Source of the DNA: Rickettsiales bacterium
Lineage (GTDB): Bacteria; Pseudomonadota; Alphaproteobacteria; Rickettsiales; SXRF01
DNA length: 64,000 nucleotides
Direction of reading: 5' to 3'
Assembly: GCA_021299465.1 (NCBI GenBank)
Contig: JAJTHB010000029.1
Location: forward strand, 1-64,000
Of this stretch, positions 4,822 through 26,189 are shown piece by piece; the stretch's first letter is position 1; each line of letters starts with the position of its first letter. The position numbers and the translations under genes are program-made. The notes under the pieces were generated by a model. That model did not search any database and was not told the DNA's origin. It worked only from the letters and a program-made list of their open reading frames with translations.

Positions 4822-4889
4822 TGTCATCCTGAGCGAAGCGCAGCGTAGTCGAAGGATCTTAAGATCCCTCGGCTACGCTCGGGATGACA
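4822..4889. repeat. Palindromic intergenic repeat, family A copy 1
   Basis: A 68-base imperfect palindrome that starts TGTCATCC and ends GGATGACA. It fills the whole gap between the beta-synthase stop codon (4890) and the gamma-lyase start. A second copy lies at 18812-18887 between ribE and ribB. The ends and the central AAGGATCTT / AAGATCC arms are shared between copies, while the inner part varies. It could fold as one long hairpin in RNA. Confidence 0.85.
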
Positions 4890-6260
4890 TTAAGCATGTC
4901 CTATTCGTTTGCGCAAATATTGTAGCAAATCAATCGGCGTGATCAGACCTAAAAACTGCTCGCCTTCCATCACAATCGCCACCATGCCGCGCTCGAAAAT
5001 CGGCAGCAGCTCTTCAAACGGGCGCGATACATCGATGGTGGTAAGATTCTTCGTCATCGCATCAGAAACTTTCATGGCAAAGCCGCTCGGATTGCCGGTG
5101 ATGCCGAGCAGGATGTCCATCTCTGAGATGAGGCCGAGCAGTTTGCCACCACCCATCACCGGCAGCTGCGACACATCATACATTTTCATTTTGCGGTAAG
5201 CGCCCGCGAGCGTGTCGGACGGCAGTACGGTGATCGCGTTTTTTGCGGTGTGCGGGCGAGTAATCAGATCGCTGAGGTCATGCGCTTCGTCTTTCATCAC
5301 CATCCCATGATCATCCAGCCAGTATTCGTTATAGATTTTGGAGAGGTATTTATTGCCCGAGTCGCACACGAAACTCACCACGCGCTTTTTGCTTTTCTGC
5401 GCGCGGCAATAGCGCAGTGCGGAGGCGATTAAGGTACCGGACGACGAGCCGCAGATAATGCCTTCTTTTTTTAGCACCTCGCGCGCCGTAGCGATTGATT
5501 CCGCATCCGAAATGGTATAGGCGTGCCTCACAAAAGAAAGCTCGCAGTTTTTGGGGATGAAATCCTCGCCGATGCCTTCCACTAGCCAGCTTCCAGCCTC
5601 AATCATGACGCCGTCATTCACATAAGGCGCGAGCACCGAGCCTTTCGGATCCGCGAGCACCATTTCGAGATTGGGCTGAACGCGTGCGAAATATCGCCCA
5701 AGGCCGGTGAGCGTGCCGCCGCTGCCTACGCCGCAGACGACGGCATCGACGTTATGCTCCATCTGCTCCCAGATTTCCGGGCCGGTCGAGCGCTCATGCG
5801 TGACCGGATTATTCGGGTTTTCAAACTGGTTCACATAAAACCCGCCCCGCTCGGCGGCGATACGCTTTGCCATATCCTGATAATATTCGCTATGGCCGAT
5901 GCCGACATCTGAGCGCGTCATCACGACCTGCGCGCCGAGCGCTTTGAGGTGAAAAATTTTCTCCTGGCTCATTTTGTCAGGAATCACCAGCACCAGCTTG
6001 TAGCCCTTCTGGCTGGCGACCAACGCGAGGCCAAGGCCTGTGTTGCCAGCGGTTGCTTCCACCAGCGTGCCGCCGGGTTTCAGGCTACCGTCTTTTTCCG
6101 CCGCATCGATCATCGAAAGCGCGATACGATCCTTGATTGATCCGCCCGGGTTGTGGCTTTCGAGCTTGAGATATAGTTCGCACAGGCCGGTATCCAGATG
6201 GTTCACCTTGACCATCGGCGTGTTACCAATCAGCGATAAGACGTTCTCGGCGCTAGGCAT
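4890..6260 (-). CDS. cbs: Cystathionine beta-synthase with CBS domains
   Basis: Joins serine (or an activated serine) and homocysteine to cystathionine using PLP. Residues 1 to about 320 form the catalytic domain, with the PLP lysine in HNPGGSIKDR and the phosphate-binding GVGSGGTLTG. The C-terminal ~110 residues form a pair of CBS domains, seen in the repeated LPVMGGGKLLGLISEMD and GEQFLGLITPIDLL. I prefer the ATG at 6260 (MPSAENVLSLIGNTP) over 6284, because a small upstream ORF ends exactly there (TAG at 6255-6253). The next gene is the gamma-lyase, across a palindromic repeat. Confidence 0.92.
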   Translation of the reverse strand: MPSAENVLSLIGNTPMVKVNHLDTGLCELYLKLESHNPGGSIKDRIALSMIDAAEKDGSLKPGGTLVEATAGNTGLGLALVASQKGYKLVLVIPDKMSQEKIFHLKALGAQVVMTRSDVGIGHSEYYQDMAKRIAAERGGFYVNQFENPNNPVTHERSTGPEIWEQMEHNVDAVVCGVGSGGTLTGLGRYFARVQPNLEMVLADPKGSVLAPYVNDGVMIEAGSWLVEGIGEDFIPKNCELSFVRHAYTISDAESIATAREVLKKEGIICGSSSGTLIASALRYCRAQKSKKRVVSFVCDSGNKYLSKIYNEYWLDDHGMVMKDEAHDLSDLITRPHTAKNAITVLPSDTLAGAYRKMKMYDVSQLPVMGGGKLLGLISEMDILLGITGNPSGFAMKVSDAMTKNLTTIDVSRPFEELLPIFERGMVAIVMEGEQFLGLITPIDLLQYLRKRIGHA

Positions 6261-16813: not shown

Positions 16814-17279
16814 GGTATCGTTGAGATAATGCGCTTAGCGCGCCATATATAAAATTCACTTCCGGTTCATCAAAGAAACGGCCAGTGAGGCGGGTATATT
16901 CATCAATGATGACGCCAGGTTTGCTATCCTTGTGAAAGAAGAGCTCAAAAGTTGCGCACTCCAGAATCGCAATGAGCACCGGACTCATACGCTCGCGCTT
17001 CCAATCCTTGCTGAATGTCGACTCGACTCTTTCGCTAATCTTCTCTCGCCATTCTTCCACACCGGAAAGTATCGCTTCCAGCAGCGGATAGTTCGGCTCA
17101 ATGCTACTTCCGATCACTTGCTTTTGCTCGGCTTTGTTGCCTGCGAGCTGTTTTTTCACGGCTGCCACACATGCCTCGCTACTGCGTGGATTGCGCTCCA
17201 CGGCCATCTGATACAAACACTGCACCGCCACCAGGCGAGAGGCAGACTTTTTTTGCAAAGAGAGATTCACCGCAGCCAT
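16806..17279 (-). CDS. nusB: Transcription antitermination protein NusB
   Basis: A 157-residue all-helical factor that binds boxA RNA with S10 and supports rRNA antitermination. The N-terminal SRLVAVQCLYQMAVE helix and the C-terminal VIIDEYTRLTGRFFDEPEVNFIYGAL are diagnostic. It starts one base after the ribH stop and overlaps thiL, so all three share a transcript. Confidence 0.94.
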   Translation of the reverse strand: MAAVNLSLQKKSASRLVAVQCLYQMAVERNPRSSEACVAAVKKQLAGNKAEQKQVIGSSIEPNYPLLEAILSGVEEWREKISERVESTFSKDWKRERMSPVLIAILECATFELFFHKDSKPGVIIDEYTRLTGRFFDEPEVNFIYGALSALSQRYHA

Positions 17280-17705
17280 TTATGCACCAAACTTTTTCTT
17301 AAGTGTGAGCATGGTAAGGCAGGTATGCGCAGCGCTACCACCTTTATTGCCTTCACGAATATCTGCACGTATTTCTGCCTGCTCCTCATTTTCCACCGTG
17401 AGGATGCCGTAACCTATGGCGAGTTTTTTCTCTATCGCAAGCTCCATCAGTCCGCGCGCGCTCTCGCCGCAGACATAATCGTAATGCGTTGTCTCGCCGC
17501 GAATCACGCAGCCCAGCGCCACATAACCATCATATTTGCCGCTCTTTTCTGCCATTGCGATGGCCGCTGGCACTTCAAATGCACCAGGCACTTCGATTTC
17601 ATCATAGCTGGCGCCTGCTTTCTTAAGCACGGCAACAGCGCCTTTGGAAAGTTCTTCAGAAATTTCCGGATAAAAGCGTGAATTGATAATGAGAATATGT
17701 GTCAT
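17280..17705 (-). CDS. ribH: 6,7-dimethyl-8-ribityllumazine synthase
   Basis: Condenses the 3,4-dihydroxy-2-butanone 4-phosphate made by RibB with the pyrimidine from the RibD branch, the penultimate riboflavin step. At 141 residues it matches the family. The catalytic histidine lies in [10 protein letters not shown] and the PGAFEVPAA motif is intact. It overlaps ribB by four bases. Confidence 0.97.
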
Positions 17706-18805
17706 GTCAGGCTCCTGGTTCCAACCACTTTCAGGCCATAACCCTCAAGACCCGCAATGGAGCGGTTGGTGGAGGTGATCAGTACCATGTGCCTCACCCC
17801 AAGGTCGAGCAGGATTTGTGCGCCAATGCCATAATCACGCAAATCGCTGATGATAGGTTTCTCACCACTCTCACGACTTTTGATACGTGTGCGCACGCTG
17901 TCTGACAGGCTGGTGGGGCTTGGCTCGCGGATCAGCAGAAGCACGCCTCCTTCTTTGCTGATGATTTCCAATGAGCGCTGCTTGCTGCCGCCAGCTTCGG
18001 CGTCGCCCAGCACATCGCGTAGCACATCCAGCTTGTGAACGCGCACCAGTACCTCTTTATCCGGCGAAATCTCGCCCTTCACCAGCGCGACATGCTCGGC
18101 ATAGTTCAGCGTGTTGGTATAGATGAACATCTTAAATTCACCGCCGTAGCGGCTGTTAAAAATGGTCTCAATCTCGCGCCTTACCAGTTTTTCCTGGCGA
18201 CGGCGATAGGCAATCAAATCCGCGATGGTCGCAATGTTAAGCCCATGCTGCTGGGCAAACTCTACCAGCTGCGGCAGGCGTGCCATTGTGCCGTCATCAT
18301 TCATGATTTCACAGATAACGCCGGATGGATTGAGGCCACTAAGTCTTGCAATATCAACCGCTGCTTCCGTGTGGCCAGCACGCACCAGCACACCGCCATC
18401 GCGCGCAACCAGTGGAAACACATGCCCGGGCGATCCGATGTCACCAGCGCCTTTGCTTGGATCAATTGCAACCGAAATGGTTTGCGCGCGGTCATGCGCG
18501 GAAATGCCGGTGGTGACGCCTTCGCGTGCTTCGATCGAGACTGTGAAGGCGGTCTGGTGGCGTGTAGCGTTTTGACGCGACATGAGATCCAGCCCGAGCT
18601 TCTGCACGCGTTCGCGTTCCAGCGCTAAACAAATAAGGCCGCGGCCATGTTTAGCCATAAAGTTCACCGCTTCTGGTGTAGCAAACTGCGCAGGAATCAC
18701 GAGATCGCCTTCATTCTCGCGATCCTCGTCATCGACCAGAATAAACATTCGGCCCGCGCGGGCGTCTTCAAGGATCGTTTCGATGGGAGAGAGTTGAGTG
18801 GTCAT
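17702..18805 (-). CDS. ribB: 3,4-dihydroxy-2-butanone 4-phosphate synthase with degenerate GTP-cyclohydrolase II domain
   Basis: The N-terminal ~200 residues are an intact DHBP synthase: [10 protein letters not shown], the [12 protein letters not shown] block and [11 protein letters not shown]. The C-terminal half has the GTP-cyclohydrolase II fold length but lacks the cysteine zinc site of active enzymes, so only the DHBP activity is expected. This arrangement is known in other alphaproteobacteria, which encode a separate RibA. None is in this window. The start is taken at 18805. An alternative ATG at 18817 lies inside the palindromic repeat. Confidence 0.9.
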
Positions 18806-18811
18806 AATTTG

Positions 18812-18887
18812 TGTCATCCTGAGCGAGCATAGCGAGTCGAAGGATCTTTTGAAAGCATAAGATCCCTCGGCTACGCTCGGGATGACA
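18812..18887. repeat. Palindromic intergenic repeat, family A copy 2
   Basis: A 76-base copy of the element seen at 4822-4889, with the same TGTCATCC / GGATGACA ends. It overlaps the 3' end of ribE, and the last four residues and stop codon of RibE (SSRA, TAG) are read from its arm. It ends seven bases before the ribB ATG, so it may also shape translation of ribB. Confidence 0.85.
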
Positions 18888-19452
18888 GTAGACGTTCAAC
18901 ATAGCGTGCAATGAGGTCGATTTCGAGATTGAGCGCATCACCAACGCCCCGTTCGCCAAGGGTGGTGACCTGCCATGTATGGGGGATGATATTCACCCAG
19001 AAAGAGTTGCCATCCACCTTGTTGACCGTGAGCGATACACCATCGAGCGTCACCGAGCCTTTCTCAGCGATGAAGTGAGAGAGAGAAGGCGGCGCTTCGA
19101 GCATAAGCCGGTGAGAATCGCCGATGGGTTCAATCTGATGCAGTATTGCAAGCCCGTCGACATGACCGGTCACCAGATGCCCATCCAGCGAATCGCCAAG
19201 CTTCATCGCCCGCTCTAAGTTGATTTTATTACCCAAGTTCCAGCGTGGGCTGGTGCGTCCTAGCGTTTCGCTCGAAAGCTGAACGGTGAAGCTACTGTTC
19301 TTCCATTCTACGACCGTCAAACATGCACCATTGCAGGCGATGGATTCGCCCAGCTTTACATCATCCCACGGGCAGGAAATCGTAAGAGACAAATCGCCCG
19401 CTTGGTCGGAGGATAAGACAGTGCCGATACTGCTGATGATTCCGGTGAACAT
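18871..19452 (-). CDS. ribE: Riboflavin synthase, alpha chain
   Basis: Dismutates two lumazines to riboflavin. The 193 residues show the two lumazine-binding repeats: MFTGIISSIGTV opens the first, and GHVDGLAIL with TLDGVSLTVN lies in the second. The last residues (SSRA) come from the palindromic repeat, so the original C-terminus was probably different. No FMN riboswitch was seen in the 73-base AT-rich gap upstream. Confidence 0.95.
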   Translation of the reverse strand: MFTGIISSIGTVLSSDQAGDLSLTISCPWDDVKLGESIACNGACLTVVEWKNSSFTVQLSSETLGRTSPRWNLGNKINLERAMKLGDSLDGHLVTGHVDGLAILHQIEPIGDSHRLMLEAPPSLSHFIAEKGSVTLDGVSLTVNKVDGNSFWVNIIPHTWQVTTLGERGVGDALNLEIDLIARYVERLLSSRA

Positions 19453-19525
19453 AATGATTGTATATAGTTAATTGTTATATAGAATTATGCAATCTAGTTC
19501 AGAATAGTAAAATGTGGAGAAAAAA

Positions 19526-19975
19526 ATGGCAAAAATTCTATTAATTAAGAATGGCGTAATTCCACGTGATTATTCGCCGATGGTTGTGGCCTTGGAAAGA
19601 GCAGGCCACACTGTTGAAGAGCGGGCTGTATCCTTATCAGATCAAGCTCAGGATATTGCAGATGAACTCAAAAACATTCGTGATGGAAATAATCCAGAAA
19701 GTAGTGGCTATGATTTAGTTATTATGGGCGATGTTGGTCGCAGGCCCGATGGAACAACGATCGCGGCAGATGTTACCCGTTATAGCCTGCAGCTAGAGGC
19801 AGTTACTGAAAAACCAGTTATGGTTGTCGATGATCTAAGTGCTGAAGTTAAACAGGGTTTGCCTGATAACATTAAAAGATTCTCTATGAGCACCGAACCG
19901 CGAGCTATTGCGATGGCGGTAAATGAGGTTCTTACCAAAAAGCGACCTAGAGATTCAGACGCTCTAGTTAGATAG
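19526..19975 (+). CDS. Receiver-like unknown protein (149 aa)
   Basis: A 149-residue protein starting MAKILLIKNG, with GGAG six bases before the ATG. The beta-alpha pattern, YDLVIMGDVGRRPDGTTIAAD in the centre and PVMVVDD following it resemble a response-regulator receiver fold. The usual paired acidic residues at the N-terminus are missing, so it may be a pseudo-receiver. The gene is more AT-rich than its neighbours and its stop overlaps ribD convergently by eight bases. I do not assign a function. Confidence 0.6.
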   Translation: MAKILLIKNGVIPRDYSPMVVALERAGHTVEERAVSLSDQAQDIADELKNIRDGNNPESSGYDLVIMGDVGRRPDGTTIAADVTRYSLQLEAVTEKPVMVVDDLSAEVKQGLPDNIKRFSMSTEPRAIAMAVNEVLTKKRPRDSDALVR

Positions 19976-21005
19976 TATTGGCTTTTGGCTCCAATACATA
20001 CAAGTGATCAGGGGAATATTCCGTTTCACTGCAACACTGCCAGCCTGTAAGCAGTGAAGGGTTTGTAATATTGTGATCCGTAAAGACACTTAGCCCTTGT
20101 TCGCCGATGACATGCGGTGCTTGGAACCAGTAAATCGTATCAACCAGCCCTGATTCCAGCATTGAGGTATTCAGCTTCTGTCCGGCCTCAACCATCACCC
20201 GCGTGATGCCTTTCTCAGCCATGGTGCTAAGGGCTTCCGGTATGGTTTTGCTGCCAAGCACCCACAGCGCCGAGACATCGATGCTTTTAGAAAGCCTGCT
20301 ACCGCGCGGCAGCCGGTGCGAGCGATCAAGCACAATTCGCATCGGCGATTTATGTTCCATACCTGGCGTGCGTACGGTGAGCAGCGGGTCATCCGCGAGC
20401 ACGGTGCCAATGCCAGTGAGGATGGCATCATATTCGCTTCGCAGGCGGTGAACTTCTGCTCGTGCCGTTTCTCCTGTAATCCAGCGCTCGCTGCCACCAG
20501 CGATTTTTCCATCGGCCGAGGTGGCGACTTTCATCATCACATAGGGGCGTTTTCGCTCCACAACCGAAATGAACCCACGGTTGAGCGCGCGCGCTTCTGC
20601 GCTGCAAATATTTTCGGTAACTTCGATGCCTGCTGCCTGAAGCTGTGCAATGCCTTTGCCATTGACCGGCGGGTTAGGATCGCGGCAGGCGACGACCACG
20701 CGGGCGATACCAGCGCTTATAATGGCATCGGTGCAGGGCGGGGTTTTGCCTTGGTGGGCACAAGGTTCCAGCGAAACATAAAGCGTAGCACCGCGCGCCA
20801 CCTCGCCTGCTTTGGCGAGTGCCTGCGGTTCGGCGTGTGGCCTGCCGCCGCGGGCGGTGAAGCCTTCACCAACGATCTTACCATCCTTCACCACGACTGC
20901 GCCTACCGCCGGATTTGGCCAGGTTTGACCGAGATTGGTGCGGCCAAGCTCAATAGCACGCAGCATGAAGGCCTGATGATTCGATGATTCTATCATCGAT
21001 CTCAC
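19968..21005 (-). CDS. ribD: Bifunctional riboflavin deaminase-reductase
   Basis: Carries out two early pyrimidine steps of riboflavin synthesis. The N-terminal deaminase has the zinc motif HAE in [10 protein letters not shown] and [11 protein letters not shown]. The C-terminal ~200 residues form the reductase, with [14 protein letters not shown]. The frame begins at a GTG that overlaps the nrdR stop; an internal ATG at 20996 is an alternative. It is separated from ribE by the plus-strand receiver-like gene. Confidence 0.95.
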
Positions 21006-21460
21006 TCTCCCTTGCCGCCTAGCTCCTCAACGATATCCTCGAAATCCTTGGCCTCACGGAAGTCGCGGTAGACAGATGCGAAGCGGATATAGGCGACGGT
21101 ATCGATTTTCTTGAGCTCCTCCATCACGATCTTGCCGATCATCGGGGTAGGAATTTCATTTTCGCCGATGGATTCAAGTTTCTGGGTGATGCGGGTGGCG
21201 AGCTGCTCGGTTTGCTCCGAGGTAACGGGGCGCTTGCGAAGGGCGATGCCCAGCGAGCGCATCAGCTTATCGCGGTCGAACAGGCGGCGCTCGCCGTTCT
21301 TTTTCACCACGGTCAGCTCGCGCAGCTGCACACGCTCGAAGGTGGTGAAGCGCGAGTTGCATTCCGGGCAGAAGCGGCGGCGGCGAATCGACGAGCCGTC
21401 ATCGCTCGGACGCGAATCCTTCACCTGAGTGTCATCATGTCCGCAAAATGGGCATTTCAT
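21002..21460 (-). CDS. nrdR: Transcriptional repressor NrdR
   Basis: Represses ribonucleotide-reductase operons in response to dNTP/ATP levels. The 152 residues show an N-terminal zinc ribbon (CPFC at 3-6 and CPEC at 31-34) followed by the ATP-cone domain ([16 protein letters not shown]). It sits between a small unknown gene and ribD, with four-base overlaps on both sides. The glyA-nrdR-ribD order is common in proteobacteria. Confidence 0.97.
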
Positions 21461-22011
21461 AGCAAGCCTCTTTGGTCGTTATGTGGTAAACGGCATGTTT
21501 GTCGAACATGCGGTGGGATAGGGTAATTGGCTGCATCACACAGCTCGATGAGGAGCTGACCGAGATGTCGATGTTCATTTGATAGATGTTCAGCGCGCCG
21601 GCTAAGCGATGCCCAGTCCGTTTCGTATGCCTCTGACCATGAACCGGCAATATTGCCAAAATTAGCTACACTAAGCGCTGCTGCTGAACCAAAGCGAATG
21701 AAAGGGGCCATCACAAACTGGACCAGATCGCTGACGATCGTTTTGTCTTCATCAGATAATTCGATGTGATCTATGTCGCGGGTATTCTGCCAGCGTTTTA
21801 TCAGATCAAGACACGCTTCTTTTTTATCGAGGATCGTTGCTGGAAACTCGTCGCTGCGCATATGGTATTTTTTTTCGAACTTAGGAGACGATTTTATTTT
21901 GTCTTCGAGCCTTTCCAGCTCCTGATCAAGATGTTCAAGCAGGCCAGCCCCAGTGTAGGGATTCTTCCATGTCAAAATATCTTGGATGATCACGGATGGG
22001 CGGCGCGGCAT
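21457..22011 (-). CDS. Unknown protein between glyA and nrdR
   Basis: A 184-residue protein I do not recognise. The N-terminal part is helical and charged (residues 20-60), the middle has [17 protein letters not shown], and the C-terminal third is rich in Leu, Ala and Arg. No signal peptide is visible, and only a short hydrophobic stretch around residue 105. It starts seven bases after glyA ends and overlaps nrdR by four bases. It interrupts an otherwise common glyA-nrdR arrangement. Confidence 0.7.
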
Positions 22012-25685: not shown

Positions 25686-26105
25686 ATGATTTATTTTTTG
25701 CTGGTTCTTCTCGTTCTGGCTGTCGTGTTAATTTATGCGCTGTCACGATCGCAGGCGGATATGAAGCGCTACTCTTCAAATGACTGGATGAAGGCTGGCG
25801 GTGTGCTGGGTGCTGCGATCCTGCTTGCCCGCTTTGCTAAACTTCCGCTGGCGACGATCATTGCCGCACTACCTTTTATCCTGCCCTATCTCAAGCAAGC
25901 TGAGAATGCGCAGTCACAAGCCCACAGCAGCAGCGCGATGACACGCGAAGAAGCGGCGCTTATTCTCGGTATTCCCCCGCGAGCAACATCTGAGCAAGTG
26001 AAGGAAGCGCATCGCCGCCTGATCACCAAAAACCACCCTGACACAGGCGGTAGCGATTATCTGGCTGCGAAAATCAACCAGGCGAGGGATGTGTTGCTTG
26101 GATAG
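25686..26105 (+). CDS. Membrane protein with C-terminal J domain
   Basis: A 139-residue protein with N-terminal hydrophobic segments (MIYFLLVLLVLAVVLIYAL and AGGVLGAAILLARF) and a C-terminal DnaJ-like domain from about residue 80. The HPD tripeptide that stimulates Hsp70 is present (KNHPDTGG). It resembles the inner-membrane J proteins of mitochondrial import (Pam18/Tim14 type) seen in alphaproteobacteria. Its TAG stop is the first three bases of a palindromic repeat (26103-26185). Confidence 0.85.
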   Translation: MIYFLLVLLVLAVVLIYALSRSQADMKRYSSNDWMKAGGVLGAAILLARFAKLPLATIIAALPFILPYLKQAENAQSQAHSSSAMTREEAALILGIPPRATSEQVKEAHRRLITKNHPDTGGSDYLAAKINQARDVLLG

Positions 26106-26185
26106 TTAGCAGTTGGCAGTTGGCGGTTAGCAGTATAACAAGTCTGTAGCCGTTTTCTTTACTACTAACTGCCAACTGCTAACTA
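26103..26185. repeat. Palindromic element between the J-domain gene and murJ
   Basis: Nineteen-base perfect arms (26103-26121 and 26167-26185) enclose a 45-base loop. The arms are built from GTTAGCAGTTGGC-type units. The left arm supplies the J-domain stop codon, and the right arm ends four bases before the murJ ATG, where no ribosome site is visible. The element could form a long hairpin in the transcript. Confidence 0.8.
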
Positions 26186-26189
26186 GCCT

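Follow-up and report, generated by a model that had tools for sequence, protein, structure and literature searches.

A palindromic repeat at the end of ribE in a Rickettsiales bacterium and its relation to a GIY-YIG nuclease gene

The riboflavin synthase gene ribE of this Rickettsiales bacterium ends inside a palindromic repeat, from which its last residues and its stop codon are read. Elsewhere in the genome the arms of this repeat enclose a gene for a small GIY-YIG nuclease, the clade of which is statistically paired with the hairpin type and its copy number. Because of this pairing and of the enclosing arms, the best explanation for the ribE palindrome is that it represents a gene-less (MITE-like) copy of a mobile GIY-YIG/REP element with two TGTC-tagged hairpin ends, a reading to which we assign a probability of about 0.7. 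The features concerned are listed in Table 1. The window is the whole 64-kb stretch of DNA analysed; the genome to which it belongs (G000) is a 1.95-Mb draft in 36 contigs, 98.6% complete.

Table 1. Features discussed in the text (window coordinates, unless another contig is given).
Feature	Coordinates	Strand	Description
ribE	18871..19452	-	Riboflavin synthase (193 aa); four C-terminal residues and stop repeat-made; TIGR00187 193 bits (cut-off 156.6)
ribBA	17702..18805	-	Start 65 nt past the ribE stop; alternative in-frame ATG at 18817, inside the repeat
TGTC-tagged REP-like inverted dimer	18812..18887	.	Putative gene-less copy at the ribE/ribBA junction; from repeat search and RNA fold
Long arm of the dimer	18812..18848	+	37 nt; 36/37 identical to the arm preceding the trpG/trpD GIY-YIG gene (left arm)
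Short arm of the dimer	18859..18887	-	29 nt, inverted; minus-strand reading (L)SSRA-stop; 26/29 identical to the arm following the GIY-YIG gene (right arm)
Second dimer of the same family	4822..4889	.	Directly 3' of the TAA of a cbs-like gene
GIY-YIG nuclease P0004 unit	G000:C27 about 4936-5288 (L005)		Between trpG and trpD; same arms on both sides

The ribE end and the ribE/ribBA junction

Read on the minus strand, ribE finishes as ...RLL SSRA TAG, with the codons CTG TCA TCC CGA GCG TAG. The element starts at 18887, on the middle letter of CTG, the codon of L189. Everything past this point, namely S190, S191, R192, A193 and the stop, therefore consists of repeat DNA. This codon reading agrees with what had been proposed from the letters alone, namely that SSRA and the TAG of RibE come from the arm of a 76-base palindrome, and this observation is confirmed.

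RibE was sought in 55 genomes, of which 44 gave a match, and 30 loci were read. Setting aside the window's own locus, three without an ORF and one cut off leaves 25 relatives. A comparison with the RibE C-termini of related genomes, suggested by the sequence-only reading, found the SSRA tail, which would have spoken against that reading, in none of these 25 readable sequences. The tail was equally absent from the 19 RibE loci of a named-contig search, at least three of which are identical to sequences in the set of 25. In 15 of the 25 relatives, RibE stops two to four residues past a conserved RLL-like triplet (RLLQK, RLLDK, RILGK, etc.), the window's RibE stopping four residues past it. As this length is typical of the relatives, the tail looks exchanged and not lengthened. 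It could be argued that nothing was ever inserted into ribE, SSRA being the original tail and its overlap with the repeat a matter of chance. The RibE of one repeat-free relative does end in RLLRSGA, which is similar to the SSRA tail, not identical. However, the absence of SSRA from both sets of loci brings this argument close to refuted, and the SS or SSRA ends borne by unrelated proteins exactly at the repeat, described below, also speak against it.

The ribBA gene lies less than 700 nt downstream of ribE in 19 of the 25 relatives. An in-frame ribBA start is found at most 11 nt from the ribE stop in 14 of these 19, compared with 65 nt in the window, or 53 nt for the alternative ATG within the repeat. 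In G001, a relative of the same genus, RibE ends with RLLSFPSPSQGEG, supplied by a different palindromic repeat. This repeat, of CCCTCTCCC type, gives the G001 protein the tail SFPSPSQGEG and its stop; its family accounts for 72 match rows in G001 and nine in the window's genome. The ribE/ribBA junction is occupied by two different repeat families in two species of one genus. G001 has CTCTCAT where the window has CTGTCAT, a stretch very short for judging whether an older TGTC copy lies beneath the G001 repeat. The initial suggestion was that the repeat seemed to have landed on the end of ribE and to have replaced it. The tails of the relatives support the landing; replacement of the old end is what we infer from them, because the same-genus relative itself bears another repeat at this place. 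Taken by itself, what happened at ribE is a modest example of something already known.

A different account would see in the hairpin an RNA element kept at ribE for its function, for example to protect the end of the ribE mRNA or to tune ribBA. Folded as RNA with short flanks, 18812-18887 reaches -43.3 kcal/mol, whereas shuffles average -21.3 (z -6.7; none of 200 folds equally well). A very stable predicted hairpin that separates two neighbours in the same operon is in keeping with this account, and so is the second repeat family at the same junction in G001. It is nevertheless improbable, since copies of the repeat stand at many unrelated gene ends and 14 of 19 relatives have no spacer at all; it would also leave the origin of the repeat unexplained. 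A search of Rfam over 17000-21500 gave no match at E<=1.

The repeat family and the gene ends made by it

The two arms of the ribE dimer are separated by a 10-nt spacer (between 18848 and 18859), and its facing units each begin, from the outside, with TGTCATCC. A 26-nt pattern taken from the arm occurs twice in the 64-kb window and never in 100 shuffles. The other copy of the palindrome, at 4822-4889, had already been described as abutting the cbs stop. It proves to be a 39+29-nt dimer with TGTC directly after the TAA; the gene name is that of the sequence-only reading, and the gene is called here cbs-like. Over the whole genome, an 81-nt query gave 39 match rows at E<=10 (one palindrome can count on both strands), and a strict unit pattern gave 28 exact matches, against none for the reversed control pattern. 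The window also contains a separate 22-nt inverted repeat, at 26100-26188, with 95% complementary arms and 45 nt between them.

An alignment (A1) was made of 32 of 49 units, the repeated and the longest or oddest ones being left out. The tag is TGTC in 29 of these units, and CGTC, AGTC or TATC in the other three. The stem opens with an A-T pair in all 32 and continues with T-A in 31. It consists of five pairs, a mismatched GA/AG step and one or two more pairs, within a unit of 28-43 nt, and the tail is CTT, CTA or CTC in every aligned unit. Changes on both sides were found at five of the seven stem pairs tested (22 cells versus 4.8 in shuffles, over the 32 units), and these compensatory changes indicate that the short stem persists although its letters change. 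The innermost of the seven pairs is unpaired in 23 of 32 units, and there are fewer additional pair types than in shuffles of the same 32. Taken singly and as DNA, the units have a weak model fold, which 17 to 176 of 200 shuffles equal. The flanks of 40 units show some T-richness and no clear target-site motif.

Four gene ends in the window's genome are made by the repeat, all in the same frame. Besides ribE, they belong to trpG (...NFLSLLSS), kdsB (...AMMSS) and an amine-oxidase-like oxidoreductase (...HKLSSRA), the stop following directly in each. The uniformity of these tails comes from the unit itself, which reads TG TCA TCC TGA or TG TCA TCC CGA GCG TAG and stops immediately. The TrpG proteins of 14 relatives stop three to seven residues past NFL, these residues being different ones, and the 90 nt shown are free of this repeat; trpG is a case of a repeat-made end independent of ribE. 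Genes near repeats were compared between G000 and G001 among the fetched loci, which gave pairs for ribE, with a different family in each genome, for kdsB, where both have inherited one family, and for three more sets (L012/L022, L025, L030 with L094, L099, L100). Since the kdsB insertion and its SS-stop end are common to G001, they predate the split between G000 and G001. The oxidoreductase site has no repeat in G001, where the native end is MSRA followed by the stop; its likeness to SSRA is by chance.

The first reading had also suggested relating the copies to the stop codons around them. With ORFs of at least 100 aa standing for genes, and bearing in mind that the two units of one dimer are not independent, an enrichment is seen at -10 to +2 nt of a stop, i.e., just after it, for 23 of 150 units from five genomes versus 83 of 7360 random positions. 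Stops lying 3-15 nt inside a unit are found for 3 of 150 units versus 113 of 7360 random positions, which is no clear excess. Ten of the 150 units hold the stop of such an ORF, and eight of these ends are SS, SSRA, SFRA or SFRI. A TAG to CAG variant keeps the frame open, and the repeat is then translated inside the protein (LSSRAQSRDL). In-frame copies of the repeat are present inside four ORFs of 535, 440, 704 and 269 aa (L007, L009, L010, L029), with about 23-33 added residues.

According to PMC3733652, REPs adjoin stops and GTAG REPs often supply the TAG; repeat-made gene ends are thus a known kind of event. They account for the identical C-terminal residues that unrelated proteins within a genome can have, and tails of the SS/SSRA type are not to be taken for functional C-terminal motifs.

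The GIY-YIG nuclease and its hairpins

At the trpG/trpD junction, the two arms span about 350 bp from end to end, with the gene of P0004, a protein of 110 aa, between them. One arm ends trpG as SS-stop and the other encodes the C-terminus of the nuclease. P0004 has the features that define the GIY-YIG superfamily, i.e., a match to PF01541 (E 2e-16, 60.4 bits, cut-off 22.6) and the conserved Y, Y, R, E and N. Its residues Y7, Y18, G20, R28, E65 and N84 are conserved in 95-97 of 97 aligned homologs, and the Y, Y, R, E and N among them are presumably the catalytic positions of GIY-YIG nucleases. No significant match to P0004 was found by sequence in the PDB (best E 0.067), and none to a family in NCBIfam. 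The Y1 transposase PF01797 has no match in the window's genome or in G001, and two of the 16 genomes of the family match. The shared arms around P0004 suggest an arm-gene-arm element, of which the dimers would be gene-less copies.

The trpG/trpD junction is devoid of a GIY-YIG gene in 14 relatives, and the gene-bearing unit of G004, which is one of three genomes of the family with this nuclease clade, sits at a different junction, trpD/trpC as read from translations. A second, distant GIY-YIG gene of the window's genome (G000:C17:54202-54480) has different arms, of ATCCCTGCGAAAGCAGGGATCC type; a GIY-YIG gene of G001 (L250) has arms of this same type.

P0004 has matches in 122 of 385 genomes of the class Alphaproteobacteria. 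Seventy loci were used, 30 that accompanied the match list and 40 picked down it while their flanks were still unseen, some rows being skipped; two near contig ends were dropped, leaving 68. The upstream flank was compared with the reverse-complemented downstream flank, a score of at least 14 being counted as positive. Inverted arms at this cut surround 43 of the 68 GIY-YIG genes versus none of 351 control placements, which are mutually overlapping and lie elsewhere in those loci; the other 25 loci score below the cut. Longer flanks gave 45 of 68; among control ORFs the count was one of 29, and among cross-locus pairings 76 of 1500. A strict tagged-hairpin test, positive on both flanks, retained 18 of 68 loci and none of the 351 placements. 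The published form ([CT]GTCAT, hairpin, CCA) is recognisable in many of these arms, the stems of which agree within a locus and differ between loci.

Ten of 32 matching records were fetched from a plasmid collection, and eight score at least 16. These come from Azospirillum lipoferum 4B, Sinorhizobium meliloti, Novosphingobium aromaticivorans, a Sphingobium, a Rhizobium, Aeromonas caviae, Planktothrix agardhii and Neisseria gonorrhoeae; the records of Rhizobium tumorigenes and Spirosoma have low flank scores. On plasmid AZO_p3 of Azospirillum lipoferum 4B, the GIY-YIG gene lies between sufB and sufC and is flanked on either side by a REP arm.

The similarity of the arms follows the identity of the nucleases over 51 loci (Mantel r 0.30, 5000 permutations, p 0.0002, host kinship ignored). 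Arms of the window's own type stand beside eight of nine nucleases with at least 51% core identity, a cut-off chosen after seeing the lists, versus one of 93 below it; one of the nine is in the cyanobacterium Planktothrix. Eleven of the 385 class genomes contain the own-type unit pattern, seven of them being among the 10 best P0004 matches (p 1.6e-10, kinship ignored and the limit of 10 likewise chosen afterwards); the count for G375, and part of that for G334, comes from the arms of the nuclease gene itself. Within the family of 16 genomes, the three with the P0004 nuclease clade contain 28, 29 and 27 units, versus 0-6 in the other 13 (p 0.0018). Nuclease clade is, in these counts, statistically paired with both hairpin type and copy number.

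Identical flanks and a pairing of nuclease with hairpin would also be expected if the REP dimers spread by some other means and a homing-type GIY-YIG gene recognised them and inserted between their arms. This homing account is the main rival, and explains the flanks too. It fits the trpG site less simply, since this site is free of such a repeat in 14 relatives, from which arms and gene seem to have arrived together. Moreover, the number of gene-less dimers tracks the nuclease, which would be needless for a passive target. On balance, homing is considered rather unlikely.

With the palindrome read as a gene-less copy of a mobile element, the full form of this element would consist of arm, GIY-YIG nuclease gene and arm, as in the unit of trpG/trpD. 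A copy would have inserted into the final codons of ribE, the operon of which is tight in most relatives. Its arm, read as nTG TCA TCC CGA GCG TAG, would have brought an instant stop, so that ribE would have lost its variable tail and gained SSRA, and the ribBA start would have come to lie 65 nt downstream, behind a strong predicted hairpin. The GIY-YIG enzyme may recognise its own hairpin, probably as single-stranded DNA, and we infer that it moves or maintains the dimers. Gene-less dimers would then accumulate, and insertions would survive at operon junctions and gene ends, in the one frame that stops at once. If true, this frame ends genes cleanly, leaving a standard tail SS or SSRA.

Comparison with known systems

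Small GIY-YIG enzymes, the Ssn nucleases, were reportedly described in 2025 as cutting single-stranded repeat DNA in Neisseria and as having many homologs. To our knowledge, this report makes no claim on mobility, gene ends or the TGTC-GAG repeat type. The Neisseria gonorrhoeae record mentioned above has a small GIY-YIG gene between repeats which we take to be dRS3-like, a likeness judged by reading. The Ssn and NTS/dRS3 system and the present one have in common a small GIY-YIG enzyme tied to repeat DNA, and part of the nuclease-repeat pairing may already be in print. A paper joining GIY-YIG enzymes with REPs was not found in the openly licensed PMC literature, which is no proof of absence.

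The Rickettsia palindromic elements (RPE) are likewise palindromes that add residues to proteins, as the four in-frame copies do here. In contrast to an RPE, which leaves the host frame open on both sides, the ribE copy ends the frame instead of lengthening the protein internally.

The GTAG REPs and their RAYT genes (REPtrons, REPINs) offer a closer parallel, with a gene-bearing unit between REP hairpins and many gene-less dimers. Their termini are also able to supply stop codons, according to PMC3733652. A REPtron has a Y1/HUH transposase, for which no match was found in the 98.6% complete draft of the window's genome, the enclosed gene being here that of a GIY-YIG nuclease.

The CGTC-tagged REPs, as presented in PMC3733652, come closest in form. 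Both they and the window repeat have a TGTC/CGTC tag outside a stem opening with A-T, T-A, and both form head-to-head dimers in Alphaproteobacteria, near the 3' ends of genes. The tag, which in the published description is an unpaired CGTC, TGTC or CCTC at one end, and the opening pairs agree with that description; the size of stem and loop and the tail differ. The published stem has 8-9 bp and a loop of 4-5 nt, compared with a 5-pair stem and a variable loop in the window repeat, and the tail is mostly CCA there and CTT here. Owing to the mismatch in stem and loop, the window repeat is placed in none of the four published CGTC-tagged families. It is linked to a GIY-YIG gene, whereas the CGTC-tagged REPs are described in PMC3733652 as having no association with transposase genes, the way in which they spread being left open. 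A broader proposal, which we regard as an even bet, is that the CGTC/TGTC-type REPs are a second REP class, driven by small GIY-YIG nucleases and not by HUH transposases. The hairpins would be specific of the nuclease clade, the arm-gene-arm element would enter tight operon junctions, and the dimers would be its gene-less copies. The pairing of nuclease, hairpin and copy number names in any case a concrete candidate enzyme for the spread of CGTC-type REPs.
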